This document shows positions 2,905 through 61,271 of a stretch of 61,862 bases of DNA, piece after piece (the first letter of the stretch is position 1; every line of letters begins with the position of its first letter). The notes below the pieces were generated by a model. The model did not search any database. It was not told the DNA's origin and saw only the letters and a list, made by a program, of their open reading frames with translations. The stretch lies in the IMG/VR virus record IMGVR_UViG_3300033141_002737, positions 1 to 61,862 of that record; one strand, given 5' to 3'. Position numbers and translations under genes: made by a program. The stretch comes from a virus.

Positions 2905-2956
2905 ATTATAATTTATGAAATTATATTTTACAAGTGTTTTATTACAAATCATTAAG
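2905..2956 (-). promoter_or_regulatory. Early-type promoter with tandem operator (internal to island 1)
   Basis: On the minus strand, -35 TTGTAA (2933-2928), a 17 bp spacer and -10 TATAAT (2910-2905). Upstream lie AACAC and two 8-mers at 2939-2946 and 2949-2956 that match CTTAATAA imperfectly. The architecture is that of the seven other copies, and this is the most degenerate operator. It would drive 2783 leftward. Confidence 0.75.
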
Positions 2957-3160
2957 TTCAAATTCTGTATCTACAGGATGATTATATACGACAGCGGCTA
3001 AAGCATCACATAAATGTTCTATACTTGTAGAATCATTGTTGTAAGCTTTATACAAAGTTATTATATGACGTAGATATATTACCTCAGACATCTCTGTAAA
3101 GGTTAAGGTTAATTTATCTAATTGAGTAGAGGACGGTTTTATAGTAGATTTAATTTCCAT
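2942..3160 (-). CDS. Hypothetical protein, 72 aa
   Basis: A mixed polar and hydrophobic protein whose middle part (SEVIYLRHIITLYKAYN) is likely helical. Its last codons overlap the operator of the promoter at 2905-2956. Translation presumably depends on the upstream promoter at 3754. No family was recognised. Confidence 0.6.
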   Translation of the reverse strand: MEIKSTIKPSSTQLDKLTLTFTEMSEVIYLRHIITLYKAYNNDSTSIEHLCDALAAVVYNHPVDTEFELNDL

Positions 3161-3163
3161 AAT

Positions 3164-3343
3164 TTATTTCTCACAATTTGTTCTTAAGGTTGTTTGTAAA
3201 TAGCCATATAAATTTATAAGCTCATCTGGAAGTGTATGATATGAAGTAGCTAATACTTTATAAAGCATTTCTGCTTCTTCTCTACTTTCAATATCTATTG
3301 TTATAGATTTAAAAATACATTTAGATTTTGATTTAAAATTCAT
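3164..3343 (-). CDS. Hypothetical protein, 59 aa
   Basis: A basic N-terminus (NFKSKSKCIFKSI), then a helical acidic centre (ESREEAEMLYKVLA). The ATG follows AAAGGAGTAAATT. It is packed directly upstream of 2942-3160. The beta-strand-then-helix pattern might be a small alpha/beta protein, but the function is unknown. Confidence 0.6.
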   Translation of the reverse strand: MNFKSKSKCIFKSITIDIESREEAEMLYKVLATSYHTLPDELINLYGYLQTTLRTNCEK

Positions 3344-3368
3344 AATTTACTCCTTTATATTTCTTTTA

Positions 3369-3545
3369 TTAATTGGCGTTTAATTTACCTAATTCTAAAT
3401 GACATTTTCCTCTATTTGATAAAGCCTCTATACATTCTGGATCATGAAATAAAACTATTGAAAAATCCTCAATAGCTTTTTTGTATTCCCCGGCTTTCAT
3501 ATAACATTCACCTCTCTTTAGGTGTGCCATTAATCCAATTTCCAT
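3369..3545 (-). CDS. Single-TPR miniature protein, 58 aa
   Basis: Nearly the whole protein is a tetratricopeptide-like helical hairpin. GECYMKAGEYKKAIEDFS has the canonical G/A-Y-G-Y-A spacing, a Pro follows (FHDPECIEAL), and the start of a second repeat (SNRGKCHLELGK) comes after. TPR motifs are protein-protein interaction surfaces, so this early protein could bind a host target. A strong AAAGGAGT site precedes the ATG. The inference of binding is from fold only. Confidence 0.65.
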   Translation of the reverse strand: MEIGLMAHLKRGECYMKAGEYKKAIEDFSIVLFHDPECIEALSNRGKCHLELGKLNAN

Positions 3546-3556
3546 AATTTACTCCT

Positions 3557-3721
3557 TTATAATTTTTTACTAAGTTTAGCTATTTTAGTTCTATTACGAT
3601 TAGTAGTTTTTATGTTTTTATTCTTAACTTTTAGATTCTTAGAAATGTGAATAAGTTTAATTGCTTAAGATTCTGTAACATTTTGGTTGTTCATTACTTT
3701 TTGAATAGTTTCTTTAGTCAT
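3557..3721 (-). pseudogene. Small basic ORF interrupted by an in-frame TAA
   Basis: The ATG at 3721, with an AAGGAG-type site, opens a 55-codon frame. Codon 19 is TAA, after which the same frame stays open for 35 codons of Lys/Asn/Thr/Arg-rich sequence ending at 3557. No internal ATG restarts it. It could be a decayed gene, an 18-residue leader peptide, or a single-base error. It is the promoter-proximal gene of island 1. Confidence 0.5.
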
Positions 3722-3753
3722 AATATAAAAACTCCTTATTTACTTATATTTTA

Positions 3754-3805
3754 ATTATATATTATAGAATTAAGTTTTACAAGTGTTTTATTAAGAATTA
3801 TTAAG
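3754..3805 (-). promoter_or_regulatory. Early-type promoter with tandem operator, head of island 1
   Basis: Reading on the minus strand: CTTAATAA at 3805-3798, two bases, CTTAATAA at 3795-3788, AACAC, -35 TTGTAA (3782-3777), a 17 bp spacer and -10 TATAAT (3759-3754). Transcription should start near 3747 and run through the whole antisense island. The operator lies between this promoter and the divergent one at 3822. Confidence 0.85.
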
Positions 3806-3821
3806 TTTAATTTATTCACAC

Positions 3822-3850
3822 TTGTAAAGTAAATAAGTATACTATATAAT
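3822..3850 (+). promoter_or_regulatory. Divergent rightward promoter
   Basis: TTGTAA (3822-3827), exactly 17 bp, TATAAT (3845-3850). It shares CAC before the -35 with the early promoters. The CTTAATAA pair at 3788-3805 is in the opposite orientation and 16 bp upstream, so one operator may serve both directions. Confidence 0.75.
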
Positions 3851-3856
3851 TAAAAG

Positions 3857-4832: not shown

Positions 4833-6170
4833 ATGGATTGGGATTGGAACAATTTAAGTCAAGATGATTCTATTAACGTTTTATTTACTCAAATAATTAG
4901 AAATCCTTTTATCCCTGTAACGCCTACAGAAAAACAATTAGAATTTCTTAGTTGTTTTAATAAAGAGATTCTTTATGGAGGTGCGGCAGGGGGAGGAAAG
5001 TCAGCCGCTTTATTAATGGCTGCTTTAATGTTTGTAACTGTACCTGAATATAGAGCACTATTATTAAGAAGGACTTATGCAGATTTAAGTTTACCTGGAG
5101 CTCTTATAGATTTATCTAAAGAATGGTTAGAGGAAACGGATGCCCATTGGAATGAAATACATAAGCAATGGAAATTTCCATCAGGAGCTACATTAAATTT
5201 TGGATATTTAGATAACGAAAAGGCTAAATATAGGTATTTAGGAGCTCAATTTCATTTTGTAGGATTTGATGAATTAACTCAATTTACAGCATCCCAGTAT
5301 TTATATTTATTTAGTAGGAATAGGAAAATTAAGGGAGTAGATATTCCTTTAAGATTTAGAACAGCCTCTAATCCTGGAGGTATGGGACATGAATGGGTTA
5401 AACAAAGGTTTATAACTGAACGTAAACAAGGACGATTATTTATTCCAGCTAAGTTATTTGATAACCCTCATTTAGATCAAGAATCTTATGAGAAGAATTT
5501 GAATGAATTAGATCCAGTTACTAGGAAGCAATTAAAGGACGGTGATTGGAATGTCGTAGGGGCTGGAAATTTCTTTCAAAGAGATAAATTTAATATGACC
5601 GATGCTTATCCAGTAAAACTTGGAAAGGGTAGAAGTGTTAGGTATTGGGATTTAGCCGCTACAGAATCTAAAGAAGGAACTGATCCTGATTATACAGTAG
5701 GAGTTAAAATAAGAACTATAAAAGGTGAATATTGGGTTGAAGATGTAGTTAGAGGAAGATATAATCCAAGAGATTTAGAGAATGTTATTAGAAGAACTGC
5801 AGAAGAAGATGGAAAGCAGGTTTGTGTCTTTATGGAACAAGAACCTGGAAGTTCTGGAAAGATAACTATTAGTCATTTTGCTAGAAATGTCTTACAAGGA
5901 TTTTCATTTAAAGGATGTAAAACTACAGGAAGTAAAGTAGTAAGAGCTAAACCTTTCAGTGCTGCAGTAGAGAACAGTAATGTTAATATTATAAGAGCAG
6001 CTTGGAACACTAAATTTTTAGAAGAATGTATTGTATTCCCTCAAGAAGGATTTCACGATGATCAGGTAGATGCTGCAAGTGGTGCATTTGAGCAATTAAA
6101 CTTATCTGGAATTGCAGGAGTAGGGACTATTAAAGTTAATAGAGCGAGTAGTATATTAGAAGGATATTAA
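4833..6170 (+). CDS. terL: Terminase large subunit
   Basis: This is the ATPase-nuclease motor that packages DNA into the prohead through the portal. The Walker A loop is GGAAGGGKS at residues 49-57, Walker B is at about 143-148 (FVGFDE), and the coupling SNPGG is at about 178. The C-terminal RNase H-like nuclease has its acidic residues in RYWDLAAT at about 272 and HDDQVDAASGAF near the end. At 445 residues it is the normal length for this family (gp17/Terminase_6 type). The ribosome binding site is AGAAAGGAT. The small subunit lies across the genome join, on the other side of the antisense island. Confidence 0.95.
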   Translation: MDWDWNNLSQDDSINVLFTQIIRNPFIPVTPTEKQLEFLSCFNKEILYGGAAGGGKSAALLMAALMFVTVPEYRALLLRRTYADLSLPGALIDLSKEWLEETDAHWNEIHKQWKFPSGATLNFGYLDNEKAKYRYLGAQFHFVGFDELTQFTASQYLYLFSRNRKIKGVDIPLRFRTASNPGGMGHEWVKQRFITERKQGRLFIPAKLFDNPHLDQESYEKNLNELDPVTRKQLKDGDWNVVGAGNFFQRDKFNMTDAYPVKLGKGRSVRYWDLAATESKEGTDPDYTVGVKIRTIKGEYWVEDVVRGRYNPRDLENVIRRTAEEDGKQVCVFMEQEPGSSGKITISHFARNVLQGFSFKGCKTTGSKVVRAKPFSAAVENSNVNIIRAAWNTKFLEECIVFPQEGFHDDQVDAASGAFEQLNLSGIAGVGTIKVNRASSILEGY

Positions 6171-6175
6171 AAGGT

Positions 6176-6460
6176 ATGGAACAAAATAATTATAAATATG
6201 GCGGTCCAGATAGTTTTAATAATTTAGTTGCCTATGCTGGACCAGATAATGTAAACATACAACCGTCTATAATTCATCAACCTAAATTAAATACACAAAG
6301 GAATCCTTCAGCGTACTTAGGATTAGAAATTATAGAATTATATGAAAATATTTTAATTAAAGCTATGAAAAAATTAACTCCTGATATTGACGTAGAGAAC
6401 AGAGGATTGTTAGTTAACTTATATTTATTTGAACAATGGTTAGATAAAGATAATGAGTGA
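6176..6460 (+). CDS. Hypothetical protein, 94 aa
   Basis: A Gly/Asn/Pro-rich N-terminus (residues 1-45) is probably disordered, followed by a helical C-terminal half (LGLEIIELYENILIKAMKKL). It sits 5 bases after terL. It may be a packaging or head accessory protein by position only. Confidence 0.6.
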   Translation: MEQNNYKYGGPDSFNNLVAYAGPDNVNIQPSIIHQPKLNTQRNPSAYLGLEIIELYENILIKAMKKLTPDIDVENRGLLVNLYLFEQWLDKDNE

Positions 6461-6608
6461 ATTAATTACAAAGAATTATGAAGATAAGTTAAATAATAAG
6501 ACATACGATATTGTAAATGTGAAATGTAGTAAATGCTCAAAAATTTGGATAACAATAACACCTATCGAAGAACCTTATATTTGTTTAGATCATTATATAC
6601 AGGAATAA
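6453..6608 (+). CDS. Small zinc-ribbon-like protein, 51 aa
   Basis: The sequence has CSKCSKIW at about residues 25-32 and a later CLDH, giving a C-x2-C...C-x2-H pattern like that of small phage zinc-binding proteins. The start overlaps the previous gene by 8 bases without its own strong ribosome binding site, so it probably depends on coupling. Confidence 0.55.
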   Translation: MSELITKNYEDKLNNKTYDIVNVKCSKCSKIWITITPIEEPYICLDHYIQE

Positions 6609-6615
6609 TAAAGAT

Positions 6616-6969
6616 ATGAAATTTGCAATAATACAGAAAACAAAGATTGATGGTAAAAACCATTTGCCCTCTAAAGGGATGTCTATACATAATATGAAAA
6701 ATTGTCCTGGAACACTTAAACATTTAAGTATAAGGGAGAGTGTAGGCCTATTGAATAAAAAGAAATATATAGAGAACAAAAAAGGATTTTCTCCAAGAAC
6801 TAGTATTGACGGCTCTAAAATTATTGTTCATTCTGAATTTGTTAATCCTCTTGGTTTAACAGTTATTGCTGAATATGAACAAGATGATCCTATATTTCAT
6901 AATATTTTAGAAAGTTCTGAATGGAAAATTCAAGAAGAGATAGAAATAGATAAAAAGTTTAAATTATGA
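6616..6969 (+). CDS. Hypothetical protein, 117 aa
   Basis: A basic N-terminal half and an acidic C-terminal end (EWKIQEEIEIDKKFKL). No signal peptide, membrane span or catalytic motif is visible. It overlaps the next gene by four bases (ATGA) and lies in a cluster of unknown head-proximal genes. Confidence 0.65.
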   Translation: MKFAIIQKTKIDGKNHLPSKGMSIHNMKNCPGTLKHLSIRESVGLLNKKKYIENKKGFSPRTSIDGSKIIVHSEFVNPLGLTVIAEYEQDDPIFHNILESSEWKIQEEIEIDKKFKL

Positions 6970-7385
6970 GTAATCTATACACAGATACAATAACAAAAAA
7001 GTTTTTTAAAGAAGTAATGGAATTCATGAATTTTTATGATTCTGCTACAACAAGACTACAAACAACAAGTAGAGATCATTATAAATATTATTCTAAAGAA
7101 TTCGTAGAGGAACAAACAGCAACTGAAATAATTACTCCAACCACTGGAAAGCGAATTTTTATAAAAGCAATGAATTGCAGTACGGATTCATCTACAGGAG
7201 AAGCATGGCTACATTATGAAGGTTTACCTGAGGATGAGCCTCTCCAAAAGGGACATTTTTCTAAATATTCAAGTTTATGTAATCCAATGCTGGCAATTAA
7301 ATTACCCGTGGATGAACCCTTACTATTAACGACTACGACTAATACAGATAAATTCTTTATTAGCTTAAATTATATAGAGGTTTAA
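6966..7385 (+). CDS. Hypothetical protein, 139 aa
   Basis: Predicted to be rich in beta strands, with many Thr (TEIITPTTGKRIFIK; LLLTTTTNTDKFFIS). This composition is common in virion surface or neck proteins. It is translationally coupled to the previous gene. No family was recognised. Confidence 0.6.
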   Translation: MSNLYTDTITKKFFKEVMEFMNFYDSATTRLQTTSRDHYKYYSKEFVEEQTATEIITPTTGKRIFIKAMNCSTDSSTGEAWLHYEGLPEDEPLQKGHFSKYSSLCNPMLAIKLPVDEPLLLTTTTNTDKFFISLNYIEV

Positions 7386-7406
7386 TATAATCCAAAGGGA
7401 TGACTT

Positions 7407-8624
7407 ATGAGTAAGAAAGATTTTTATAATTGGTGGGTTAAAAACGGAAGTAAAGGTAGAGATAAAGCTTATAAATTATTTAAAGAACAGAATTACCCAG
7501 TAAAGAATATTAATTATTGTGATGTAGAGAGCTATGTTAGGGAATTTAAAGGAATTCAGGAAGTATCTCCTAAGATATTACAAGAGAAGAAAGAGAAGCC
7601 CAAACCCAAAGAAAGAGCATTTACAGAACCAGAATTACAAATTACTCATCTTAAAAATCAAATAAAAATAAAAGAATCTGAAGTTAGAACATTACAAAAT
7701 ATAGCTGCATCTGATTTAGCTATAGTTAAATTATTTGAAAATGCTATAGATAAATTTAAACCAAATCCTATAATACTATCTCGAAGTAAAAATAAAATAG
7801 ATGATGAGGAAATAGTAAGTTTATTATCAGATATACATTATGGGGAAGTTGTATCATCAGAGGCTATGATGGATTTTAATAGTTATGATACCTCAATAGC
7901 GGAAAAAAGATTAAATATTTGGTATAATAACATAAAAATTATTTTAAATAAATTAAATAGTTGTAATGTTAAGAAGATCAATTTAATGATGTTAGGGGAT
8001 ATGGTTAATGGTAATATTCATGAAGAGCTTAAATCTGGAACGTGTGAAGTAGACCAAGTTATAAATTTAGCAGAAATTATAGCGCAAATAATAATGGATT
8101 TATCAAAAGATTTTGAATTAGTTGTTAGTGGGGTTATTGGTAATCATGGACGTATGACTAAAAAACCATCATTTAAAAAGAAATATAATAATTTTGATTA
8201 TCTTGTTTATAAATTTATTGAAACAAGATGTCAAAATCTAAACAATGTCGAGTTTCTTTTTCCAAAAGCTGGTATGTTATTACAAAAAATACAAAATCAT
8301 AATTTTTTATTAAGACATGGCGATTCAAAAATTCAATCTTATGCTGGAATACCTTTTTATGGTATACAAAGAGCATCAAATAAAATTACACAAACTATGG
8401 CTTATTTTAAGGATGTTTTTATAAATTATGAAGTGTTAGGGCATTTTCATACAACAAATACTCTTGAAAAAGCAGGAGGTTCAATTATTATGAATGGATG
8501 TATTAAGGGAGGGGATGAGTATGCACTAGAGGCAATGATGACAGGTTCAGAGGCTAAGCAAACTATATTTGGAGTGCATAAGGAATATGGTAAGACGTGG
8601 ACTTATGATGTACATTGCATGTAA
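7407..8624 (+). CDS. Calcineurin-like metallophosphoesterase, 405 aa
   Basis: The binuclear-metal phosphoesterase motifs appear in order in the C-terminal two thirds: SDIHYG (D-x-H), LGDMVNG (G-D), IGNHGR (G-N-H), LRHGDS and GHFHT (G-H-x-H). The first 110 residues are a charged, Lys/Glu-rich region with a coiled coil. The enzyme would hydrolyse phosphodiester or phosphomonoester bonds, and the substrate is unknown. It sits among head genes rather than replication genes, which may indicate a virion-associated or packaging-linked nuclease. GGGATGAC precedes the ATG. Confidence 0.85.
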   Translation: MSKKDFYNWWVKNGSKGRDKAYKLFKEQNYPVKNINYCDVESYVREFKGIQEVSPKILQEKKEKPKPKERAFTEPELQITHLKNQIKIKESEVRTLQNIAASDLAIVKLFENAIDKFKPNPIILSRSKNKIDDEEIVSLLSDIHYGEVVSSEAMMDFNSYDTSIAEKRLNIWYNNIKIILNKLNSCNVKKINLMMLGDMVNGNIHEELKSGTCEVDQVINLAEIIAQIIMDLSKDFELVVSGVIGNHGRMTKKPSFKKKYNNFDYLVYKFIETRCQNLNNVEFLFPKAGMLLQKIQNHNFLLRHGDSKIQSYAGIPFYGIQRASNKITQTMAYFKDVFINYEVLGHFHTTNTLEKAGGSIIMNGCIKGGDEYALEAMMTGSEAKQTIFGVHKEYGKTWTYDVHCM

Positions 8625-8677
8625 TCCGTACTATTATATAAAATAAAGAAAATAATCATTATTAAAGGAGGGTAGGA

Positions 8678-8914
8678 ATGCCTATAATCGAACAAGTTCC
8701 AGAATTAGAAGTAACCCAAAGAGATTTAGAAATTTTAACTCTAGTTAAAGCAGGATACTCTAATATAGAGATGACTAAGATATTATTCATATCAGAAAGC
8801 ACTATTAAAACTCATCTAAGTCGTTTATATCTAGACTTTAATGTACATAGTAGATATGAATTAATTATATACCTTTGGAAATATGGAATTCCAAATATAA
8901 GAAGGAAAGGATAA
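8678..8914 (+). CDS. LuxR/GerE-type helix-turn-helix regulator, 78 aa
   Basis: Residues 12-65 form a complete GerE-like tetrahelical HTH: LTLVKAGYSNIEMTKIL, then ISESTIKTHLSRLY, with the conserved T-I-K-T-H-L-S. There is no receiver or autoinducer domain, as in stand-alone GerE-like regulators. AAAGGAGGG provides a very strong ribosome binding site. It is a candidate regulator of the tandem-operator promoters, because NarL/LuxR-type domains can bind adjacent repeated half-sites. That link is inference only. Confidence 0.8.
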   Translation: MPIIEQVPELEVTQRDLEILTLVKAGYSNIEMTKILFISESTIKTHLSRLYLDFNVHSRYELIIYLWKYGIPNIRRKG

Positions 8915-8918
8915 ATAA

Positions 8919-9098
8919 ATGTGCATATATTATGAGACTTTTTATGATATTATAGTTATTCCTTCAGCTACTATGGATAATAGTCCAATGTACACCCTAA
9001 AAGAATATAAAACTATATTAAGACAAAAGGAAGAGAAACTTTTCCAAAAATTATGTGATCAAAATCAATTATATAGAGAGTTTACAAGGAACCATTAA
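8919..9098 (+). CDS. Hypothetical protein, 59 aa
   Basis: The hydrophobic and aromatic N-terminus (CIYYETFYDIIVI) could be a beta hairpin or weak membrane segment. The C-terminus is a charged helix (LRQKEEKLFQKLCDQ). AAGGAAAGG precedes the start. No family was recognised. Confidence 0.55.
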   Translation: MCIYYETFYDIIVIPSATMDNSPMYTLKEYKTILRQKEEKLFQKLCDQNQLYREFTRNH

Positions 9099-9115
9099 AA
9101 TGAGAGGAAAAATTT

Positions 9116-9334
9116 ATGAACAAGGTATTTGAAATTATTATTAACACAATTCAGACAGTAGAAAAAGAAATCGGTTCAGGGCAAGGAGAAACAAAAAAGG
9201 AAAAAGCTGTTAATATAATTAATAACTTGATTGATATTCCCATTATTCCTGAATTTCTTGAAGAAAAGGTTTTTAGTCTAATTATTGATTTAGTTGTATT
9301 CATTTTTAATAAATATGAAATCTTCAAAAAATAA
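9116..9334 (+). CDS. Holin-like or conserved small phage protein, 72 aa
   Basis: The pattern of an N-terminal amphipathic helix, a 'G-x-G-x-x-K-K-E-K-A' linker and a hydrophobic C-terminal helix (SLIIDLVVFIFNKY) resembles small phage proteins annotated as LL-H-type holins, with 'D-I-P-x-I-P-E' in the middle. It is followed by two tiny membrane proteins, which makes this the best candidate lysis cluster. The assignment is tentative. Confidence 0.5.
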   Translation: MNKVFEIIINTIQTVEKEIGSGQGETKKEKAVNIINNLIDIPIIPEFLEEKVFSLIIDLVVFIFNKYEIFKK

Positions 9335-9383
9335 AATTAGCTTATAATCCAATAAGAAAGCATTTTATAAGGAGTCATTAAAT

Positions 9384-9470
9384 ATGGATCCATATTTTGT
9401 AAGTGGATTAATTATTATAAATTTAATTATGTATTATGGGTACAAAAAATTTAATTTAAAGGATTATTAA
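9384..9470 (+). CDS. Tiny membrane protein, 28 aa
   Basis: One hydrophobic helix (SGLIIINLIMYYGY) with a basic tail. ATAAGGAGT lies at good spacing before the ATG. It is the middle member of three consecutive small hydrophobic proteins upstream of the portal gene. Confidence 0.5.
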   Translation: MDPYFVSGLIIINLIMYYGYKKFNLKDY

Positions 9471-9472
9471 AA

Positions 9473-9574
9473 ATGACAGATATTTATATAATAAAACTAG
9501 CTTTTTTATGTATTGCTCTAATAGCTATATTATATTATGTATATAAAGAGTATAAAGAATTTAAGAAATTATAG
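9473..9574 (+). CDS. Tiny membrane protein, 33 aa
   Basis: A single predicted transmembrane helix (LAFLCIALIAILYYV) followed by a Lys/Glu-rich tail (YKEYKEFKKL). AAAGGATTA serves as ribosome binding site. The architecture (short, one span, charged tail) is compatible with a lysis accessory protein, but this is not shown. Confidence 0.5.
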   Translation: MTDIYIIKLAFLCIALIAILYYVYKEYKEFKKL

Positions 9575-9583
9575 AGGATTATA

Positions 9584-11143
9584 ATGTTTAATTTTTTAAA
9601 CAGAAAATCGAATAAGAAATCTAAGGATTTACATAGAAATAATAATAATATATATATTAGTAATGAAATTGCTACAAGAGATAGAGTAGACTTTACCAGT
9701 TTGTTAGGTTATCTTCCAGATCCAGATGAAATATTGCTTAATACTGGAAATACTTTTGATGTATATAGGAAATTAATGGTAGATTCTCAAATTAGAGCTT
9801 GTTCTAATAGTAGAAAGGCTGGTACCAAATCTTTGCTTTGGGATATAGATAAAGGGAAGGAAAATAAATCTAAATATACAAAAATTATAAAAGATTTCTA
9901 TGAACGTGATTTGGATATAGATAGTATGAATGATGCTATACTTAATGCTCCATTATTCGGGTTTCAACCTATTGAAATTATATGGGGTAGAATTGGAGAA
10001 TATATCTTACCTATAGAATTAAAACCAAAGAATCCAGAATGGTTCATGTTTGGCCCTAAAGGAGAATTAAAATTATTAACTCCAGGTAATTTCCTAACTG
10101 GAGAGGATTTACCTCAAAGGAAATTCTTAACGCCTACTTATAACGATATTAATAATAATTATTATAATCCTTATGGAGATAGATTACTTTCTAGTTGTTT
10201 CTGGCCAGCTACATTTAAGAAATCTGGATATAAATGGTGGGTAACATTCACAGAAAAATACGGAATGCCTTATATAATAGGAAAATTACCTGCAGGACAA
10301 GATCAAGAACGTCAAGGAATGTTAGATAATCTAAAAGCTATGGCAATGGATGCGGTAGCAGTTATCTCAGACGACGCTAGTGTAGAAGTCACAGGAATAA
10401 CAGGTTCATCTAATAATGCAGAATTATATAGAACCTTAATTGAATCTTGTGATGCTGCCATAGCTAAGACATTATTAGGACAGACATTAACAACAGAAGG
10501 ATCTGATAAAGGTGTAGGTTCACAAGCTTTAGGAAGAGTTCATTCTGGGATAAGGGATGATATTATACTATCAGATAAGAAATTAGTAGAGAACACACAT
10601 AATAAACTCATTCGTTGGATAGCTGAAATAAATTTCGGAATAGATACAGATCTTCCAAAATTTGAGATGTTTGAAGAAGAAGATGTTGATTTAGATTTAG
10701 CACAAAGAGATAAAATCCTTAAAGATACTGGAGTTAAATTCACAAAATCTTATATAATGAGAACATACGGATTTGAAGAGGATGATATTGAAGAGGTAGA
10801 AAGTGTTCCAGAATCTAAAGATGGGTTTAAACCTGAAGAACCTAATTCAGAGGATAAACTTAAAGAAGATAAAGAGAGTGAATTTGCAGAAAAGGGTGAA
10901 TATTATACAGATCAAATAATTAAGCAATTTTCAGATATTCAATTACAAAGTCAAATAAAAGAAGCCCTTAGTCCTGTGTTTAAGCTAATTAATTCCGCTA
11001 ATGAGTATAATGAAGTGTTAAAAGCATTAGATGGGCTTAATCCGACGATGTCTACTGTAGATATTGAAAAGCACTTAACTAAAGTATTATTTATAGCGGA
11101 ATTACTTGGAAGTAAGGATGCTAGAGATGAGGTAATTAAGTAA
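9584..11143 (+). CDS. Portal protein, DUF935 (Mu gp29-like)
   Basis: The 519-residue protein matches the Mu gp29 portal family: a DSQIRACSNSRKAG block at about residue 64, FGFQPIEIIW at about 124-133, a YGDRLLSSCFW segment, WWVTFTEKYGMP at about 216-227 and a LGQTLTT loop at about 306. The portal is the dodecameric ring at the head vertex through which TerL pumps DNA. The acidic C-terminal 120 residues are Glu/Lys/Asp-rich. The gpF-like gene, normally next to the portal, is displaced by the antisense island that follows. Confidence 0.9.
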   Translation: MFNFLNRKSNKKSKDLHRNNNNIYISNEIATRDRVDFTSLLGYLPDPDEILLNTGNTFDVYRKLMVDSQIRACSNSRKAGTKSLLWDIDKGKENKSKYTKIIKDFYERDLDIDSMNDAILNAPLFGFQPIEIIWGRIGEYILPIELKPKNPEWFMFGPKGELKLLTPGNFLTGEDLPQRKFLTPTYNDINNNYYNPYGDRLLSSCFWPATFKKSGYKWWVTFTEKYGMPYIIGKLPAGQDQERQGMLDNLKAMAMDAVAVISDDASVEVTGITGSSNNAELYRTLIESCDAAIAKTLLGQTLTTEGSDKGVGSQALGRVHSGIRDDIILSDKKLVENTHNKLIRWIAEINFGIDTDLPKFEMFEEEDVDLDLAQRDKILKDTGVKFTKSYIMRTYGFEEDDIEEVESVPESKDGFKPEEPNSEDKLKEDKESEFAEKGEYYTDQIIKQFSDIQLQSQIKEALSPVFKLINSANEYNEVLKALDGLNPTMSTVDIEKHLTKVLFIAELLGSKDARDEVIK

Positions 11144-11144: not shown

Positions 11145-11342
11145 TTATATATTTATTTTTAATAATTTAATTTGATCTAATAACATCTTTACCTGACCGG
11201 CTTTATATAATAAAGCTTCTACATATACAGTAGACTTTCTATTACTATCTATAAATTCAGTTCGTGTTCTTTCATCGACTTGAATTAATTCTTGTTGTAC
11301 AGCTATTAAAAGTTCTTTACAGGCTTCTCGAATTTTATCCAT
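11145..11342 (-). CDS. Hypothetical helical protein, 65 aa
   Basis: Last gene of antisense island 2. Mostly helical, with IREACKELLIAVQQELI and a Lys/Leu-rich end. Its stop abuts the portal stop on the other strand with one base between. AAAGGAGT precedes the ATG. No family was recognised. Confidence 0.6.
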   Translation of the reverse strand: MDKIREACKELLIAVQQELIQVDERTRTEFIDSNRKSTVYVEALLYKAGQVKMLLDQIKLLKINI

Positions 11343-11355
11343 TTTAAATACTCCT

Positions 11356-11547
11356 TTAATTTAATTCTTGAGAATCAAATTCATATTCTTTGCCCTCTAC
11401 AGGGATAGTACCTGCTTGTACATTTTTTAGAGCTATAGTTTGAGCCAATTGCTTATTGTATCCAGCTACTGTAATTATTTGTTCCTTATAGTAAATATCG
11501 GCTATTACTTTTATTTTGTATTTTTGAGGTTTAGCTAATTTATTCAT
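11356..11547 (-). CDS. Hypothetical beta-rich protein, 63 aa
   Basis: Beta-strand pattern (YKIKVIADIYYKEQIITV) followed by a helix (KQLAQTIALKNVQ) and a further strand. It could be a small ferredoxin-like alpha/beta fold. AAGGAGTAA lies before the ATG. No homologue was recognised. Confidence 0.6.
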   Translation of the reverse strand: MNKLAKPQKYKIKVIADIYYKEQIITVAGYNKQLAQTIALKNVQAGTIPVEGKEYEFDSQELN

Positions 11548-11560
11548 TTAAAATTACTCC

Positions 11561-11704
11561 TTAAAGTATTGAACATAGAACTACTATACAACCTATGAAT
11601 ATTGTATATACTAAAATTAAAAACATTATAAAACCCATATTGCATGCAGCATCTTTTAAATCATCAAAAAATTCTATAAGTTTAATGTTTAAGGGTTTAT
11701 TCAT
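11561..11704 (-). CDS. Small membrane protein, 47 aa
   Basis: The N-terminal half is amphipathic (IKLIEFFDDLKDAA). The C-terminal half is one transmembrane helix (FIMFLILVYTIFIGCIVV) ending at the C-terminus, so it looks tail-anchored. AAAGGAGT precedes the start. Function unknown. Confidence 0.6.
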   Translation of the reverse strand: MNKPLNIKLIEFFDDLKDAACNMGFIMFLILVYTIFIGCIVVLCSIL

Positions 11705-11716
11705 ATATTACTCCTT

Positions 11717-11908
11717 TCAATTATTTAATCCAATAATTTTTTCATAATATTTACAAATTTGTTTTCTTTGGGTTACTTTCTTTCCTGTTAATTTACATTC
11801 AGATTTATTATAAGGTTGAGTGTATACAAGAAAAAAATATGGATCATAATATTTACAATCTTTGCATATAGGTTCTTTATTAGTTATCCTATCATTTATT
11901 TTCATAAA
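11717..11908 (-). CDS. Cysteine-rich small protein, 63 aa
   Basis: ICKDCKYYDP, then SECKLTG and QICKYYEK give four cysteines in the C-x2-C...C...C layout seen in many small phage proteins, probably a zinc site. I chose the ATG at 11908 because AAGGAATGG stands before it. A longer frame from 11956 lacks a ribosome binding site and lies mostly inside the upstream gene. A second ATG two codons on is possible. Confidence 0.55.
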   Translation of the reverse strand, partial: FMKINDRITNKEPICKDCKYYDPYFFLVYTQPYNKSECKLTGKKVTQRKQICKYYEKIIGLNN

Positions 11909-12020
11909 CATTCCATTCCTTCCAATATGGACATTCAGTATTATTACATAGTTCACAATTCCAAGTAGCTGAATGATATTTAGATTCGGCTTCTATAGGT
12001 TTAGGGATACAATCATTCAT
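11892..12020 (-). CDS. Cysteine-containing small protein, 42 aa
   Basis: CELCNNTECPYWKEW gives C-x2-C-x4-C, and there is one earlier Cys, so this is a possible minimal zinc knuckle. Its 3' end overlaps the next gene's start region by 17 bases, and it also overlaps the upstream gene 12013-12507 by 8 bases. The dense overlap supports a translated operon. Confidence 0.5.
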   Translation of the reverse strand: MNDCIPKPIEAESKYHSATWNCELCNNTECPYWKEWNVYENK

Positions 12021-12507
12021 TATTCAACCACCTTATATTTCGTATTCGCTGCTCATTATCTATATAAGATTCTCGATTAGGTATTTTAATTCCTTCATTT
12101 AATTTACGTATTACAATTATAGATAACTTACACTTATCCTTTAAGGCACTAAATTCGTTATTATAACAACCTTCACATTTATAATTTCTTTGATAACAAT
12201 GTAATTCAGATTCCAAAAGATAATCCCGCTTAAATGAGGTGATATTTCCAAATCTTGAATCCAGTCTAGTATTCCAATCCTTTACAAATTCATCTGGATT
12301 ATTAATTACTATACAAGTTCTTATATAATACTTTTGGCGTAATTTATCATAACAGGGTAATTTAATTAAGCTCTTATATTTAGCGTATAAAGCTTTATTT
12401 AATATGGTGCGCATATAACTAGGAGCATTTCGAATTAAAGTTTTGAAATACATTTTTTCAAAATATCCTTGAGATATAAAATCATTTACAGTTAAATTTT
12501 CAATCAT
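12013..12507 (-). CDS. Hypothetical protein with Cys cluster, 164 aa
   Basis: The largest protein of the antisense islands. It is basic, with a C-terminal cluster CYQRNYKCEGCYNNEF and a later Cys (KDKCKLS), suggesting a structural zinc. The N-terminal half is helical. No catalytic motif was recognised. TAAAAGGAT lies before the ATG. Confidence 0.65.
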   Translation of the reverse strand: MIENLTVNDFISQGYFEKMYFKTLIRNAPSYMRTILNKALYAKYKSLIKLPCYDKLRQKYYIRTCIVINNPDEFVKDWNTRLDSRFGNITSFKRDYLLESELHCYQRNYKCEGCYNNEFSALKDKCKLSIIVIRKLNEGIKIPNRESYIDNEQRIRNIRWLNNE

Positions 12508-12524
12508 AATTAAAATTAATCCTT

Positions 12525-12779
12525 TTATAGTACAAGAGAAGAATAATCAAAATCCTTATGTAAAATATTATTTATTAATATGCGTTCTAATGAATGGGAT
12601 GATCTATCTAAAGAGAACATAGGTAAGTGTCTAATATAGTCCATATTAAAATCATTATTTCTAAGAATCATTAATGCTTGTCGTCTTTTACAATTTAAGT
12701 AAGAATTTGATTTTAATTTCTTACAATTTGAATTACAATAAGTATTGCAAAAATGTTTACCTTCTATATCAATACTCAT
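12525..12779 (-). CDS. Cysteine-rich basic protein, 84 aa
   Basis: CNTYCNSNCKKLKS and a following LNCKRRQAL place four Cys within about 20 residues near the N-terminus, a likely zinc-binding segment. A helical basic C-terminal part follows. AAGGAAAATT precedes the ATG. Function unknown. Confidence 0.6.
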   Translation of the reverse strand: MSIDIEGKHFCNTYCNSNCKKLKSNSYLNCKRRQALMILRNNDFNMDYIRHLPMFSLDRSSHSLERILINNILHKDFDYSSLVL

Positions 12780-12803
12780 AAATAGAATTTTCCTTTAATT
12801 TAT

Positions 12804-12950
12804 TTAATCTTGAGCGAAGTGTATATCATTCTCTAGCATAAGAATATAATTTTTTATTAATCCTTTTTGTATTTTATTATCTTCACTAAGAAGACTTAAT
12901 TTTTGCTCTTCAATCATTGCTCTTAATGTTGATTTTTTTAATTTATACAT
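12804..12950 (-). CDS. Small helical protein, 48 aa
   Basis: First gene after the island 2 promoter. Charged and helical throughout (LRAMIEEQKLSLLSEDNK). GGAAACAT lies before the ATG. No family was recognised. Confidence 0.55.
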   Translation of the reverse strand: MYKLKKSTLRAMIEEQKLSLLSEDNKIQKGLIKNYILMLENDIHFAQD

Positions 12951-12982: not shown

Positions 12983-13034
12983 ATTATAAATTATAAAATT
13001 GTATTTTACAAGTGTTTTATTACGAGTTATTAAG
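12983..13034 (-). promoter_or_regulatory. Early-type promoter with tandem operator, head of island 2
   Basis: Minus strand: CTTAATAA (13034-13027), CT, then CGTAATAA (13024-13017), AACAC, -35 TTGTAA (13011-13006), 17 bp, -10 TATAAT (12988-12983). The right flank continues into TTTATAAAGGTA, which is the ribosome binding site of gpF at 13058, so one cassette serves both strands. Confidence 0.85.
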
Positions 13035-27396: not shown

Positions 27397-27400
27397 AAAT

Positions 27401-35844: not shown

Positions 35845-35847
35845 ATA

Positions 35848-36926: not shown

Positions 36927-36929
36927 GAG

Positions 36930-55113: not shown

Positions 55114-57111
55114 ATGAATTTGGAAAATAATAATATACCCATTATGTATTTAAAATCTCAATCATATAATGTAGATTTTGTAAATTTAATGGAGCAGCTA
55201 TATACACGTTATGGAAAGACTTTATTTGATCTTAGCGGTATTGGATGGCAGCTTGATTTTAATAAAATGTCTAAAGAGTTTTTTACGGATAAATCAATAG
55301 ATAGTAGTGTAGATTCTAATGCTAATGCTATAGATGAATCAGTTATAGCCCACAGAATTGAAGTAACTAAACCAGCTCAACTTTTAAATTCTTATTATAG
55401 ATTATGGAAGGAATTAAAGAAATTAAGTAGTTTAGAGTTAGCTAATCATATAATCACAGATCAATTAACCGGACGGATATATGTAAATGATCTTGTAGGA
55501 TTTTCTAGTTCGATGCCCTATTGTTTTAATTATTCTGCTTATGATACAGCTTTGATGGGAATTCCTCCTATATTAGATGGAAGAGGTGGAAGTAAACCTC
55601 CTAAACATTTAGAAGCATTTTTAGGACAAATATTATTGTTCTCTTTAATAGCTGGAAATTCTACTTTAGGTGCTACAGGATTAGCAGATTTATTAATTGT
55701 GGCATCTATTTATATGGATAAGATATTGCAGACTGGTATGGATACTAAGGTTAAACTAATAGAAGATGAAGATAATTATTGGCAATATTTTGAATCAAAA
55801 TTCACAAGATTTATTTATGAGTTGAATCAACCTTATAGAGGTTCTCAAAGTTTATTTACTAATATTTCAGTTTATGATGATAATTTTTTAGATGAGATGA
55901 TAGATAATTATAAATTAATAATAGATGATAAAGAATATAAAGCTAAGAAACATATAGTTAAGAAAGTTCAAGAAATTTATTTAAAAATAATGGAGGAGGA
56001 ATTAAAGAGAAAACCTCTAACATTTCCAATCCCTTCAGCTTGTTTTAGTATAGATGATGAAAATAATATATTAGATAATCGATTTTTAGATGTAATAGCT
56101 AAATTTAATTTAAAGTTTGGATTTATTAATATATATGCTGGAAAGAGTAGCACTTTATCTTCTTGCTGTAGATTAAGGAGTGACACTACTAATGAATATT
56201 TCAATAGTTTTGGAGCGGGTAAAACTAAGATAGGTTCTTTAGGAGTATGCACCGGAAATTTACCTCAATTAGTTAAGAAAAGCCGAGTGATAACTTTATT
56301 AGATAATGATGTACCATTTAAGGATTTAGAGGCAAAATCTCAAGATACATTTTTAGTTGAATTAAAGCAGCTTGTTAAAGATTGTCAAGAGGTTAATAGA
56401 GCTAAAAGAAATATTATTGAACGAACTATAAATAATGGAAATCATCCTTTGTATTCTTTAGGGTATATGAGTTTAAAGCATCAATATTCTACCTTTGGTA
56501 TTGTAGGTCTATATGAGGCTTTAGAGCTCTTAGGATTGGATATACTAACTACTAAAGGTCAAACTTATGTATTAAGTATGTTAAGGGTTATTAATAACGT
56601 TAATAAAGAGCTTGAGGGGATGTATAAAGTTCCGCATAATTGTGAGCAAATACCTGCGGAAAATACTGCAATTAAATTAGCTCAAAAAGATAAATATTTA
56701 GGATATAATAATGAATATGAATTATACTCTAATCAATTCGTTCCTCTAACAAAAAATATAGATATGTTAGATAGAATTAAAATACAAGGATTATTGGATA
56801 AGTATTTCTCTGGAGGATCTATATGTCATATAAATATGGATCAAGAAATCACAGAAATAGATAAGATGAAAAAATTAATAAAACATAGTATTAAGAAGGG
56901 TGTAATATATTCAGCAATTAATTATGTAATACAGGAATGTGAGAAAGGACACTTTACTGTGGGTAATGTAAATGAATGCAATATATGTGGAAGTAAAATA
57001 GTGGAAAAATTTACGAGAGTAGTAGGATTTTTAACTAAAATTAGTAAATGGAATAAGGTAAGAAAGAATTATGAATTTAAAAATCGACAATTTTATAAGG
57101 AGTTGAAATGA
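55114..57111 (+). CDS. nrdD: Anaerobic ribonucleoside-triphosphate reductase, class III
   Basis: At 665 residues it has the NrdD core: AGNSTLGATGLAD at about 188-200, TFPIPSACFSIDDE at about 304-317, and TLSSCCRLRSD at about 344-354 with the catalytic Cys. The C-terminal glycyl radical site is FTRVVGFLTK at about 640-649, with V in place of the usual Cys and F for Tyr. Only one full C-x2-C pair (NECNICGSK) is visible before it; the other is CEKGH. It makes dNTPs without oxygen and overlaps nrdG. Confidence 0.9.
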   Translation: MNLENNNIPIMYLKSQSYNVDFVNLMEQLYTRYGKTLFDLSGIGWQLDFNKMSKEFFTDKSIDSSVDSNANAIDESVIAHRIEVTKPAQLLNSYYRLWKELKKLSSLELANHIITDQLTGRIYVNDLVGFSSSMPYCFNYSAYDTALMGIPPILDGRGGSKPPKHLEAFLGQILLFSLIAGNSTLGATGLADLLIVASIYMDKILQTGMDTKVKLIEDEDNYWQYFESKFTRFIYELNQPYRGSQSLFTNISVYDDNFLDEMIDNYKLIIDDKEYKAKKHIVKKVQEIYLKIMEEELKRKPLTFPIPSACFSIDDENNILDNRFLDVIAKFNLKFGFINIYAGKSSTLSSCCRLRSDTTNEYFNSFGAGKTKIGSLGVCTGNLPQLVKKSRVITLLDNDVPFKDLEAKSQDTFLVELKQLVKDCQEVNRAKRNIIERTINNGNHPLYSLGYMSLKHQYSTFGIVGLYEALELLGLDILTTKGQTYVLSMLRVINNVNKELEGMYKVPHNCEQIPAENTAIKLAQKDKYLGYNNEYELYSNQFVPLTKNIDMLDRIKIQGLLDKYFSGGSICHINMDQEITEIDKMKKLIKHSIKKGVIYSAINYVIQECEKGHFTVGNVNECNICGSKIVEKFTRVVGFLTKISKWNKVRKNYEFKNRQFYKELK

Positions 57112-57569
57112 GAATTACGAAATTAGATTATTCAATTGAAACTCTCTCTTTAGATATATATATATCAGGATGTAAAGAGCCTCATTGTGAAGGATGCCAT
57201 AATCCAGAATTATGGGACTTTAGTGTAGGAGAATTATATACTCAGGATTATTGTGATAATATAATTAAAAAAATTAAAGAACATCCTTTATTAATCGATA
57301 GAATTTTAATTATGGGTGGTGAACCCTTAGATCAGGATAATATAAAGTTAAGGCATTTATTAAGAAGTCTTAGCTTAAATACAGAGCCGGATATTTATTT
57401 ATTTACAAGATACGAATTAAAGGATATCCAGCCAAATATAAGTATCTACACAGATTTTATAAAATGTAGTAAATACAGTATAAAAGAAAAAACAGATAAT
57501 AATATTCAATTTAGAATTAAATTAGCAAGTATGAACCAGACTATATATAGAAAAGGAGTTGACTATTGA
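57108..57569 (+). CDS. nrdG: NrdG, activase of class III reductase
   Basis: The radical SAM cluster is GCKEPHCEGCHNPELWDF at about residues 22-39. The Cys spacing is C-x4-C-x2-C rather than the usual C-x3-C-x2-C. RILIMGGEPLDQDN is at about 66-79. At 153 residues it has the normal length. It makes the glycyl radical on NrdD, whose gene ends 4 bases inside it. The pair indicates anaerobic dNTP synthesis. Confidence 0.9.
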   Translation: MRITKLDYSIETLSLDIYISGCKEPHCEGCHNPELWDFSVGELYTQDYCDNIIKKIKEHPLLIDRILIMGGEPLDQDNIKLRHLLRSLSLNTEPDIYLFTRYELKDIQPNISIYTDFIKCSKYSIKEKTDNNIQFRIKLASMNQTIYRKGVDY

Positions 57570-57736
57570 GTTATAAATATAATAATACTTTATTAAAAGG
57601 TGCATTCGAGGAAAGAACTAATAAATATATTAGATATCTTGAACATATGATTGCTAAATTAAGTAGAGAAAAGACAGAATCTAAAATGGAATTAATTAAT
57701 TTAAAATTAAAATTAAGGAGTTTAAGTAATGGTTAA
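57566..57736 (+). CDS. Small helical protein, 56 aa (TTG start)
   Basis: TTG at 57566 overlaps the nrdG stop (TTGA) and follows AAAAGGAG. The protein is basic and helical (YIRYLEHMIAKLSREKTESKMEL). It overlaps the kinase gene by 8 bases, which supports translation in series. No family was recognised. Confidence 0.5.
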   Translation: MSYKYNNTLLKGAFEERTNKYIRYLEHMIAKLSREKTESKMELINLKLKLRSLSNG

Positions 57737-58451
57737 ATTAATATGTTTATTAGGAGTTATAGGAAGCGGTAAAACATATAGAGCAGAAAAATTAGTTAAA
57801 GAGGAAGGATTTATTCATATTAATTTTGCGGATGAACTTAGAGAAATATCTTGGGAGATTTTAAAATGGAGACCCAAAAATGAGCAAGAATATGAGGACT
57901 TTAAGAATGGTTTAATATATATTTCTTCAATGGATGGTCGTGTAAATGGAAGGCAATTCCTTCAAAATTTAGGTATGAGTATAAGAAAGAGATATCCTAA
58001 TTTTTTTACTGAGTGTTGGAGGGCTAAAGCTATTCATATACTGGAAACAGATACAAGCGTAGTATGTTCAGATTTGAGGTTTATTAATGAATTAGAGTAT
58101 GTATTAGATATACAATGTTCAAATATAAATTATTGTAGTTTAAATAAGGAATTTATTTTTTGTGATTATAGAAGTAATAGATATAAAGCTAATGATAACC
58201 ATGAATCGGAAAGATTAGCTCAAGGAATTTTAATCGATGGATATAAAGATGGGGATAGATTATATTATAATTATTTTAAAAACTATAAGAAAGAAAGGAG
58301 ATTAAATAAAATGGCAAGAGTATTGATTAGTTTACCTGAGGTGTTATTAAAAAAGATTGATGAAATAGTTAAAAAGGATTATGGAATTAGATCTGAATTT
58401 ATTAGACAAGCATGTCGAGAATTTATCGCGAGATATAAGAAAGAGAGTTAG
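57729..58451 (+). CDS. dNMP kinase-like protein with C-terminal ribbon-helix-helix, 240 aa
   Basis: Residues 1-190 resemble phage deoxynucleoside monophosphate kinases: Walker A LLGVIGSGKTYRAE at 7-20, FADELREI at about 35-42 and VVCSDLRFINELE at about 112-124. From residue 195 a CopG/Arc ribbon-helix-helix follows (RVLISLPEVLLKKIDEIV, GIRSEFIRQACREFI). An AAAGGAG site plus ATG at 58311 lies in frame just before it, so the second domain can also be made alone. AAGGAG precedes the first start. Confidence 0.75.
   Translation: MVKLICLLGVIGSGKTYRAEKLVKEEGFIHINFADELREISWEILKWRPKNEQEYEDFKNGLIYISSMDGRVNGRQFLQNLGMSIRKRYPNFFTECWRAKAIHILETDTSVVCSDLRFINELEYVLDIQCSNINYCSLNKEFIFCDYRSNRYKANDNHESERLAQGILIDGYKDGDRLYYNYFKNYKKERRLNKMARVLISLPEVLLKKIDEIVKKDYGIRSEFIRQACREFIARYKKES
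58311..58451 (+). CDS. Ribbon-helix-helix regulator, internal start, 46 aa
   Basis: The ATG at 58311 follows AAAGGAG with good spacing and is in frame with the upstream kinase. The 46-residue product is a full RHH domain on its own: MARVLISLPEVLLKK strand, helix A and GIRSEFIRQACREF helix B. Such tiny DNA binders repress promoters. It may be expressed alone in addition to the fusion. Confidence 0.65.
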   Translation: MARVLISLPEVLLKKIDEIVKKDYGIRSEFIRQACREFIARYKKES

Positions 58452-59599: not shown

Positions 59600-59779
59600 A
59601 TGGAAATTAAATTAGATTTAGAAAGCGCATTTGTGCCTGTAATTATTAGGTTGGAATCACAGGCAGAGGTATATCAGTTAAAGCATTGCCTAAACCATTA
59701 TAAACCTAATGCTGGTAATCAGGAGCGTCCTGTAGAGGAATTTAGACAAAATTTTATCATGAAGTTGAAAAAATTTTAA
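59600..59779 (+). CDS. Hypothetical protein, 59 aa
   Basis: Acidic N-terminus (KLDLESAFVPVIIRLES) and basic end. A strong AAAAAGGAGAT site precedes the ATG. It is the last gene of the replication operon. No family was recognised. Confidence 0.6.
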   Translation: MEIKLDLESAFVPVIIRLESQAEVYQLKHCLNHYKPNAGNQERPVEEFRQNFIMKLKKF

Positions 59780-59798
59780 TAATATAACAAATTAAGGG

Positions 59799-59854
59799 TT
59801 GTTTTATTTATGTTAATACTGTATAATAAATATAATACCTCTAATAACAGTATT
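59799..59854 (+). promoter_or_regulatory. Candidate promoter and inverted repeat before gene 59898
   Basis: TTGTTT (59799-59804), 17 bp, TATAAT (59822-59827). The inverted repeat AATACTGT (59815-59822) / ACAGTATT (59847-59854) overlaps the -10 box, so it could be an operator. The CTTAATAA pair is absent. Confidence 0.6.
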
Positions 59855-59897
59855 CGCGTTTTTACAAGTAAGTCGATATTGCGAGGGAGGATAAATA

Positions 59898-60356
59898 TTG
59901 GGGATTAGATGTAGCCATAAAAGACGAATATATAAAATTGAAAAATTATATCCTACAAAGGAATTCGAGGAGCGATTAGTTTTTCAAAGTAAGTGTGAAT
60001 ATTGCGATGAATATGTATTAAAATTAGTTTTTTATAGAGAAGATGATAGTAAGTGGACTCAAAAATATATTAAGGATAAAGCTAAAGAAAAATATTTAGC
60101 TCTAAAGCCTGAGATAATGTGTATCTATAATGCTGATTTACATCCTGAATTAGATATAGGTGTAAATTATTTTGATGGAGCTAATTATACAGTAAGGAAA
60201 TTACATAATTCAGCAATAGTTGAACATTATATATCACCAGATATGATATATAATATTCAACTTATGCTAATGATAAAATTAATAAGTAAGAAATTTAAAC
60301 AAGCTAAACAATTTATTGAAATAGCTTATTTAGTTCTATTTTTAAAGTTTCAATAG
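59898..60356 (+). CDS. Hypothetical protein with Cys motif, 152 aa (TTG start)
   Basis: TTG at 59898 follows GAGGGAGG with good spacing. CSHKRRI at residue 5 and KCEYCDEYV at about 33-41 form a likely zinc site of the C-x-H...C-x2-C type. The C-terminal 40 residues are hydrophobic and helical. The gene overlaps the convergent antisense gene by 44 bases. Unknown function. Confidence 0.6.
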   Translation: MGIRCSHKRRIYKIEKLYPTKEFEERLVFQSKCEYCDEYVLKLVFYREDDSKWTQKYIKDKAKEKYLALKPEIMCIYNADLHPELDIGVNYFDGANYTVRKLHNSAIVEHYISPDMIYNIQLMLMIKLISKKFKQAKQFIEIAYLVLFLKFQ

Positions 60357-60537
60357 TATTTAAAGCATTTTCATATAATGTTTTGTAATTAACCGTAGAT
60401 TTAGAGAGTTCTATTTGGTATCTAATCCAAGCAGAACCACCTAATGTACTAAATAATTTTCTTTGATCTTTAAATATGTTAATAGTTACTTGGACTGTTT
60501 CTTTTAATTTAGGTCTACCGATTTTATTATTTTCCAT
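60313..60537 (-). CDS. Ribbon-helix-helix-like DNA-binding protein, 74 aa
   Basis: IGRPKLKETVQVTINIFKDQRKLF followed by GGSAWIRYQIEL fits the 'G-R-P' arm plus a ribbon-helix-helix of Arc/MetJ type. The C-terminal half is a coil. AAGGAGTT lies before the ATG, overlapping the stop of 60541. It is the last gene of antisense island 5 and a candidate regulator. Confidence 0.65.
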   Translation of the reverse strand: MENNKIGRPKLKETVQVTINIFKDQRKLFSTLGGSAWIRYQIELSKSTVNYKTLYENALNTIETLKIELNKLFQ

Positions 60538-60540
60538 TAA

Positions 60541-60717
60541 TTAACTCCTTAATTTATTAAGTAATTCAGTAAATTCAGGACTTTTGTGCAATCCTAATCT
60601 TGAGGCTTCTTTAGCTACAAGAGCACAAAGTAGCATATCTTTAGTGGTTTGAGAATGTATAATAGCTTCTTCATTTATTATATCTCTACATTGATCAATT
60701 AAATTATTTAATTTCAT
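60541..60717 (-). CDS. Hypothetical protein, 58 aa
   Basis: Helical protein (LIDQCRDIINEEAIIHSQTTKD). AAAGGAGTAT precedes the ATG. Overlaps the previous gene's end (60704) by 14 bases. No family was recognised. Confidence 0.6.
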   Translation of the reverse strand: MKLNNLIDQCRDIINEEAIIHSQTTKDMLLCALVAKEASRLGLHKSPEFTELLNKLRS

Positions 60718-60955
60718 CCATATACTCCTTTATTAATTTATTGTATAAATAGACTACAAATTTTAGATGATTTTCGGAAGAACTTGAGATAGTTATATTT
60801 AGCTTAGTATATTCTGTATATGTTCGATCTATTATAGTACATTTATTATCTAATATAATTGCTGTAAATTCCGCTATAAGAGGGCTAGGAACACTAAAAA
60901 ATGTTTTATCTTTATTAAGCATTGTCGATATACATCTACAATTAAAATCTTGCAT
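60704..60955 (-). CDS. Hypothetical protein, 83 aa
   Basis: The ATG at 60955 follows AAGGAGCAT. A longer frame from 60997 is inside the upstream gene and has no ribosome binding site. The sequence is mainly beta-strand with CRCISTML and an amphipathic end. Unknown function. Confidence 0.55.
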   Translation of the reverse strand: MQDFNCRCISTMLNKDKTFFSVPSPLIAEFTAIILDNKCTIIDRTYTEYTKLNITISSSSENHLKFVVYLYNKLIKEYMDEIK

Positions 60956-60968
60956 ATTTTTATGCTCC

Positions 60969-61190
60969 TTAACTATAATTTTCTTGTAGAGCTTCATAAC
61001 TCATTTGATTAGCGTGTTTATTATAGTGTTGAATTTTTTCTTCAAGATTTATCATTTGAGATTGTTGTTTTAAAGTGTAAGTATAAGATCCTAATATAAG
61101 AGAATCTTTAAATTCAGGATGTTCAATTTTCCAATCTTTATCTAGTTTCCTTAATTTACTTAATTTAGATCTCATTGAAGAAATTTTCAT
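60969..61190 (-). CDS. Coiled-coil basic protein, 73 aa
   Basis: Basic N-terminus (SSMRSKLSKLRKLDKDWKI) and a helical, Gln-rich middle (LKQQSQMINLEEKIQ). AAAGGAACC lies before the ATG. It is the promoter-proximal gene of antisense island 5. No family was recognised. Confidence 0.6.
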   Translation of the reverse strand: MKISSMRSKLSKLRKLDKDWKIEHPEFKDSLILGSYTYTLKQQSQMINLEEKIQHYNKHANQMSYEALQENYS

Positions 61191-61219
61191 TTGGGTTCCT
61201 TTATTTAAATTATACTTTA

Positions 61220-61271
61220 ATTATATATTATAAAACTATATTTTACAAGTGTTTTATTAAGATTTATTAAG
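61220..61271 (-). promoter_or_regulatory. Early-type promoter with tandem operator, head of island 5
   Basis: Minus strand: CTTAATAA (61271-61264), AT, CTTAATAA (61261-61254), AACAC, -35 TTGTAA (61248-61243), 17 bp, -10 TATAAT (61225-61220). It drives the 60313-61190 group leftward, against the virion operon. Confidence 0.85.

Follow-up and report, generated by a model that had tools for sequence, protein, structure and literature searches.

Among the described systems closest to the one reported here, the early promoters of the lytic phage T4 occur in many copies of an extended consensus, composed of an upstream (UP) element for the polymerase alpha subunit, a -35, a TGn and a -10 element, and they are read by the host polymerase immediately after infection (PMC2988021). 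For the lytic Bacillus siphophage SPP1, the available part of the source describes several host sigma-A promoters (PE1-PE5) at early and replication units, and no shared upstream repeat (PMC6316719). In phi29, the adjacent early and late promoters A2c/A2b-A3 are controlled as one region by the proteins p4 and p6. Here we analyzed IMG/VR record IMGVR_UViG_3300033141_002737, a siphophage whose replication module is Dp-1-like, over its whole length of 61,862 bp (28% GC; hereafter, the window), in which an earlier note had described eight promoters with one invariant tandem-operator arrangement. These eight promoters probably turn on the first genes of the virus through the host RNA polymerase. 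We favor reading them, from their sequence, as immediate-early promoters used with a host sigma factor and carrying a UP-like element, to which we assign a probability of about one half.

All eight arrays were confirmed, at positions 2905-2956, 3754-3805, 12983-13034, 23063-23114, 24184-24235, 29453-29504, 32229-32280 and 61220-61271, six of them facing leftward and two rightward, as the earlier note had it. In 8 of 8 sites an 8-mer, 2 bp, a second 8-mer, the identical AACAC, a -35 hexamer, 17 bp and a -10 hexamer follow one another with the same spacing. When each site was left out in turn and scored by the matrix of the remaining seven, it reached 18.6-66.1 bits, whereas 60 simulated genomes, generated by a first-order Markov model with the composition of the phage, gave 10.3 bits at best. 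The upstream pattern TTAATAANNNTTAATAAAACAC, allowing up to 2 mismatches, was observed 8 times, against 0.025 expected. Scanning the genome recovered all eight sites and no ninth copy, and grouping promoter-like sites by how similar they are upstream produced this family, with the same eight members, and no other.

With the -10 hexamer set as -12 to -7, the two boxes lie at -58 to -51 and -48 to -41, one helical turn apart, and the double box takes the form CTTAATAA; the element TTAATAAAACACTT is exactly conserved. Imperfect operators had been noted for two copies, but four sites have at least one imperfect 8-mer, namely 2905 (both boxes, CTTAATGA and TGTAATAA), 12983 (second box, CGTAATAA), 23063 (first box, TTTAATAA) and 32229 (first box). 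The -35 hexamer is TTGTAA in seven sites and, as correctly noticed before, TTTAAA in one (32229), while the -10 hexamer is TATAAT in seven and TATACT only at 24184. ATA at -18 to -16 is also invariant.

The core of these sites agrees with sigma-A/sigma-70 promoters, in which the hexamers are 16-18 bp apart (17 bp in 8 of 8). Most cores match the consensus at 10 of 12 positions, with the optimal spacer of 17 bp and a -10 that is usually perfect; the -35 matches at 4 of 6. Ribosome sites were found at a fitting distance downstream of most family promoters. Unlike the early promoters of T4, which are read by the E. coli sigma-70 polymerase with a TGn extended -10 and the injected protein Alt, none of the eight has TG at -15/-14, ATA at -18 to -16 being conserved instead, and the upstream element consists of one 8-mer repeated in direct orientation; the annotation showed no Alt-like protein, although no search was aimed at Alt. 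A possible operator role of the dyad TTATAnnnTATAA, which covers the -10, was set aside; since ATG(T) occupies the corresponding -18 positions in several relatives, the dyad more likely reflects a preference of the core promoter. Generic -35/-10 pairs by themselves occur no more often than chance predicts in this A/T-rich genome (116 compared to 124 +/- 11 per 20 kb), so that it is the upstream element that makes the set special. Tandem direct repeats are typical of iterons, and the double box could in principle serve replication or packaging; however, every copy precedes a gene start and is coupled, with unvarying distance and orientation, to a -35/-10 pair, and the copies are scattered, not clustered, which makes such a role extremely improbable.

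The genes behind these promoters form a consistent set. Gene calling with ribosome sites gave 28 leftward calls, 27 of which are credible; the doubtful one is a 31-amino-acid open reading frame with a weak ribosome site (6466-6561). All 27 credible calls fall into five clusters, each starting just behind a leftward family promoter, and no credible leftward cluster lacks one. The main cluster (809-3721, minus strand; 809-3545 by the credible calls) contains about 14 small genes of 18-75 amino acids behind two promoters. The first, 3754-3805, has two perfect boxes (3798-3805 and 3788-3795), -35 TTGTAA at 3777-3782 and -10 TATAAT at 3754-3759; the other, 2905-2956, lies within the 3' end of a leftward open reading frame and provides a second start point. 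One member of this cluster (3369-3545, minus strand) encodes a 58-amino-acid protein consisting nearly entirely of TPR repeats. The promoter at 12983-13034, between the portal and MuF-like genes, precedes eight small genes (11145-12950, minus strand) which run head-on to the structural operon. Single genes of 59 amino acids (22852-23031, minus strand, followed by an intrinsic terminator at 22831 on that strand) and 53 amino acids (23990-24151, minus strand) lie behind the promoters at 23063 and 24184, and four small genes (60313-61190, minus strand) lie behind the promoter at 61220, whose boxes are both perfect.

The two rightward sites head the helicase and replication units. At 29453-29504 (plus strand), directly after the intrinsic terminator of the preceding operon (29415, plus strand), perfect boxes (29453-29460 and 29463-29470), AACAC (29471-29475), the -35 (29476-29481) and the -10 (29499-29504) precede a gene of 120 amino acids and a SNF2-type helicase (29538-31491). 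At 32229-32280 (plus strand), where the upstream block is kept, the -35 is TTTAAA and the spacer has diverged, the unit behind it (32310-35236) encodes an O-like/DnaD-like initiator, a DnaC-like loader and the DnaB helicase. The terminase/structural operon has no family site. It is faced by a divergent promoter at 3822-3850 (plus strand; ACACTTGTAAA, 17 bp, TATAAT), back-to-back with 3754, which shares the core and has no double box; the element therefore marks a single class of units, made up of replication and the small leftward genes, and can be separated from the core promoter. Thus, by gene positions, a regulon of leftward and replication units is well supported, consistent with all 27 credible leftward calls, the two rightward units and the layout in relatives, whereas the term phage-wide, used in the earlier note, does not hold for the terminase/structural operon. 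The element is present at the 27 leftward calls and the helicase and replication units and absent at 3822, a distribution that would resemble a T4-type early set if these units are the early ones, as we infer. The pair 3754/3822 also recalls the adjacent early and late promoters of phi29; unlike in phi29, no homologue of p4 or p6 was seen in the annotation, in which no search was aimed at either protein.

Similarity among the copies could also reflect recent duplication of one promoter module, by descent and not by function of the boxes. Seven of the copies are indeed alike in the spacer (73%) and in the initial transcribed region (65%), and several are contained in small gene-plus-promoter modules. 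However, pairwise identity among these seven is 0.90-1.00 in the boxes, AACAC and the -35, and falls sharply outside the functional blocks, to 0.41 upstream of -59 and 0.33 downstream of +15. The eighth copy, 32229, compared with the others, retains 0.95-1.00 identity in the proximal box and AACAC, 0.84 in the distal box and 0.98 in the -10, while its spacer (0.38) and leader (0.39) are near the random expectation of 0.32 and its -35 stands at 0.67. Since the boxes, AACAC and the -10 were kept while spacer and leader became nearly random, recent copying alone is insufficient, and we consider this explanation very improbable. By this pattern of identity, the upstream block is under selection.

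How this block may act is suggested by its position. The alpha C-terminal domains of RNA polymerase bind UP subsites at -58 to -45 (distal) and -45 to -37 (proximal) (PMC2613000), and the two boxes, at -58 to -51 and -48 to -41, coincide with them. Besides the two subsites, the A/T richness of a UP element is present; the A/T fraction at -59 to -40 is 0.90, compared to 0.72 for the genome, as calculated over ten sites, two of them weak additional matches. In engineered Bacillus promoters, the strongest activation came from two repeats of one subsite (PMC9655642). The host RNA polymerase, carrying the main sigma factor, would recognize the -35, the 17-bp spacer and the -10, while the double box with AACAC would serve as a UP-like docking place for two alpha C-terminal domains, letting these sites outcompete the many chance -35/-10 matches of a 28% GC genome. 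The sites would then fire at once upon DNA entry, like the host-read T4 promoters, and turn on the leftward accessory genes, all small and some of them in modules lying head-on in the structural operon, together with the helicase and replication units, leaving the divergent terminase promoter, which has no such element, for later. Host polymerase alone is favored because an immediate-early promoter cannot wait for an activator made by the phage. A phage sigma factor was also considered; the window protein at 38318, at the position of Dp-1 Gp69, has no sigma domain match, and this candidate was rejected.

Several observations weigh against the UP-like reading. The sites agree only moderately with the E. 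coli UP consensus, at 8-10 of 15 positions, compared to an intergenic mean of 6.8 and a 95th percentile of 10. Conservation extends to the single letters, C residues and AACAC among them, and goes further than the degenerate alpha domain should require, and 32229 keeps the element better than its -35, which suggests a sequence-specific reader. With conservation stricter than the alpha norm and only a moderate E. coli match, a sequence-specific regulator is kept as a serious second reading. The double box could possibly be an operator for a sequence-specific phage protein, made early, which would later repress or tune all the early promoters; its TTAnTAA near-palindrome could accommodate one dimer per box, two dimers side by side. 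This tentative reading would account for the exact conservation of TTAATAAAACACTT and its retention at 32229 despite the -35 change. Moreover, p4 and p6 of phi29 switch early and late promoters (PMC3100819). On the other hand, the boxes are upstream of the -35 and do not overlap the core, a less common placement for a repressor site, and no regulator was linked to the site. We hold just as tentatively that a dedicated protein, phage-encoded or a hijacked host factor, might read the double box, allowing promoter-plus-small-gene modules to be inserted anywhere, even head-on in a late operon, under common early control, each Dp-1-like phage having a private code.

The earlier note had instead proposed an activator binding the boxes as tandem monomers. 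The same-face spacing of 10 bp directly upstream of a -35 with only 4 of 6 matches agrees with that proposal, as does a -35 free to drift at 32229, and an activator needed for this weak -35 could be host-encoded or injected. Yet most cores match at 10 of 12 positions with a 17-bp spacer and a usually perfect -10, so that dependence on an activator is not needed, the alpha subsites explain the same positions, and an activator that the phage itself makes early would arrive too late to serve the first genes. The activator mechanism is not established and seems unlikely to us.

Candidate DNA-binding proteins that could act on an operator are encoded in the window. The proteins at 36930 (XRE) and 8678 (LuxR-type helix-turn-helix) belong to DNA-binding families, and the protein at 57729 has a weak RHH_1 match at its C-terminus. 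That at 8678-8914 is a stand-alone protein of 78 amino acids located among structural genes, and that at 57729-58451 resembles a deoxynucleoside monophosphate kinase, the weak C-terminal match being of ribbon-helix-helix/HicB-like type, an unusual fusion. The protein at 60313, which had been listed as ribbon-helix-helix, was not recognized as such; it has no Pfam match to E=1, PHROGs matches only of unknown function, no PDB sequence match and no viral relatives, and its single-sequence model contains helices only and no strand (low predicted template modeling score, pTM 0.32). Its identity as ribbon-helix-helix is thus unsupported, which counts against the operator reading, and was not used.

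The exact motif did not occur in any of the 24 related records that were searched, and these offer the operator reading no case of boxes inherited together with a regulator. It was found in one near-identical viral contig of 10 kb from a different metagenome, which is 99.9% identical to 27215-37412 and includes both rightward sites; two lone matches in bacterial genome contigs look like chance. The relatives have promoter families of their own. Dp-1, MS1 and several uncultured relatives each contain a repeated promoter family, differently worded. In Dp-1 and MS1 one member, placed like 29453, follows the late terminator and precedes the small gene ahead of the SNF2 helicase, and further members are in the leftward cluster. 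Four uncultured relatives (G001, G008, G015 and G021) also have a member upstream of the SNF2 helicase, and in two of these, G008 and G015, the remaining members are in the replication/accessory half. The Dp-1 family (HQ268735; for example 44523+, 4788+, 16785-, 17958- and 20727-) is alike in this position after the terminator, in leftward copies within a small-gene cluster, in A/T tracts at -60 to -40 and in the 17-bp spacer, whereas its sequence differs, with A and T tracts, a conserved spacer TTCACTCATTATCG and no tandem box. The MS1 family likewise has three leftward copies and one before the helicase unit (16569-, 16944-, 19623- and 43735+), but carries a spacer palindrome, ATATTACCCGGTAATAT, an apparent operator absent from the phage described here; the MS1 paper states its promoters only as software-predicted. 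Such palindromes between -35 and -10, ATATTACCCGGTAATAT in MS1 and CATATCGGAATATG in G001, imply that operators do occur at promoters of this group, in favor of the operator reading.

Upstream A and T tracts occur in the families of Dp-1, G008 and G004, and in every family the A/T fraction at -59 to -40 is 0.08-0.28 above the average of the genome, with a drop just upstream of -35 across families. Mean UP scores are above background by 1.3-4.3 in all families but one. Because the matrices used to collect the relatives' family members included the upstream region, this excess is partly selected for, which reduces its weight for a UP-like element. G008 (GC 44%) carries some 18-20 members of a single family, marked by A/T tracts, CC(C/T)GTTG and a TGT preceding the -10; almost all lie in the non-structural part and on the same strand. 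Dp-1-like phages thus appear to keep the layout of the regulon while rewriting the upstream promoter code genome by genome, which poses the question of whether polymerase or a private regulator reads the boxes. The promoter set offers a sequence-only route to the early gene program of an uncultured phage, and makes the small leftward genes of unknown function candidates for host takeover.

The window is flanked by an exact direct repeat of 114 bp (1-114 equal to 61749-61862), by which the phage genome is circularly closed and probably complete. The order of its replication genes, SNF2-DnaC-DnaB-primase-SSB-PolI-Que-clamp-Cas4-RecU-RecA-DnaX-HolA, matches that of the Dp-1-like group, and identity to Dp-1 and MS1 is 37-38% for PolI and 35-36% for DnaB; in both gene order and sequence, the replication half is related to these Streptococcus phages. 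Unlike the replication half, the structural half is, as judged by its proteins, of other origin, and a Dp-1-like structural module was not recognized; structural proteins had weak or no matches in the relatives searched, and the portal used as a query found no relatives. The structural module (4833-11143 and 13058-13750) is a mosaic with a Mu-type portal and MuF and a lambda J-like tail. The terminase is nearest to that of methanogen phage psiM2 (51%); an archaeal host, which this terminase would suggest, is not favored, given ribosome sites at a bacterial-type distance from the start and replication genes of bacterial type. A pair of NrdD/NrdG genes for anaerobic ribonucleotide reductase, found at 55114-57569, fits an anaerobic host.

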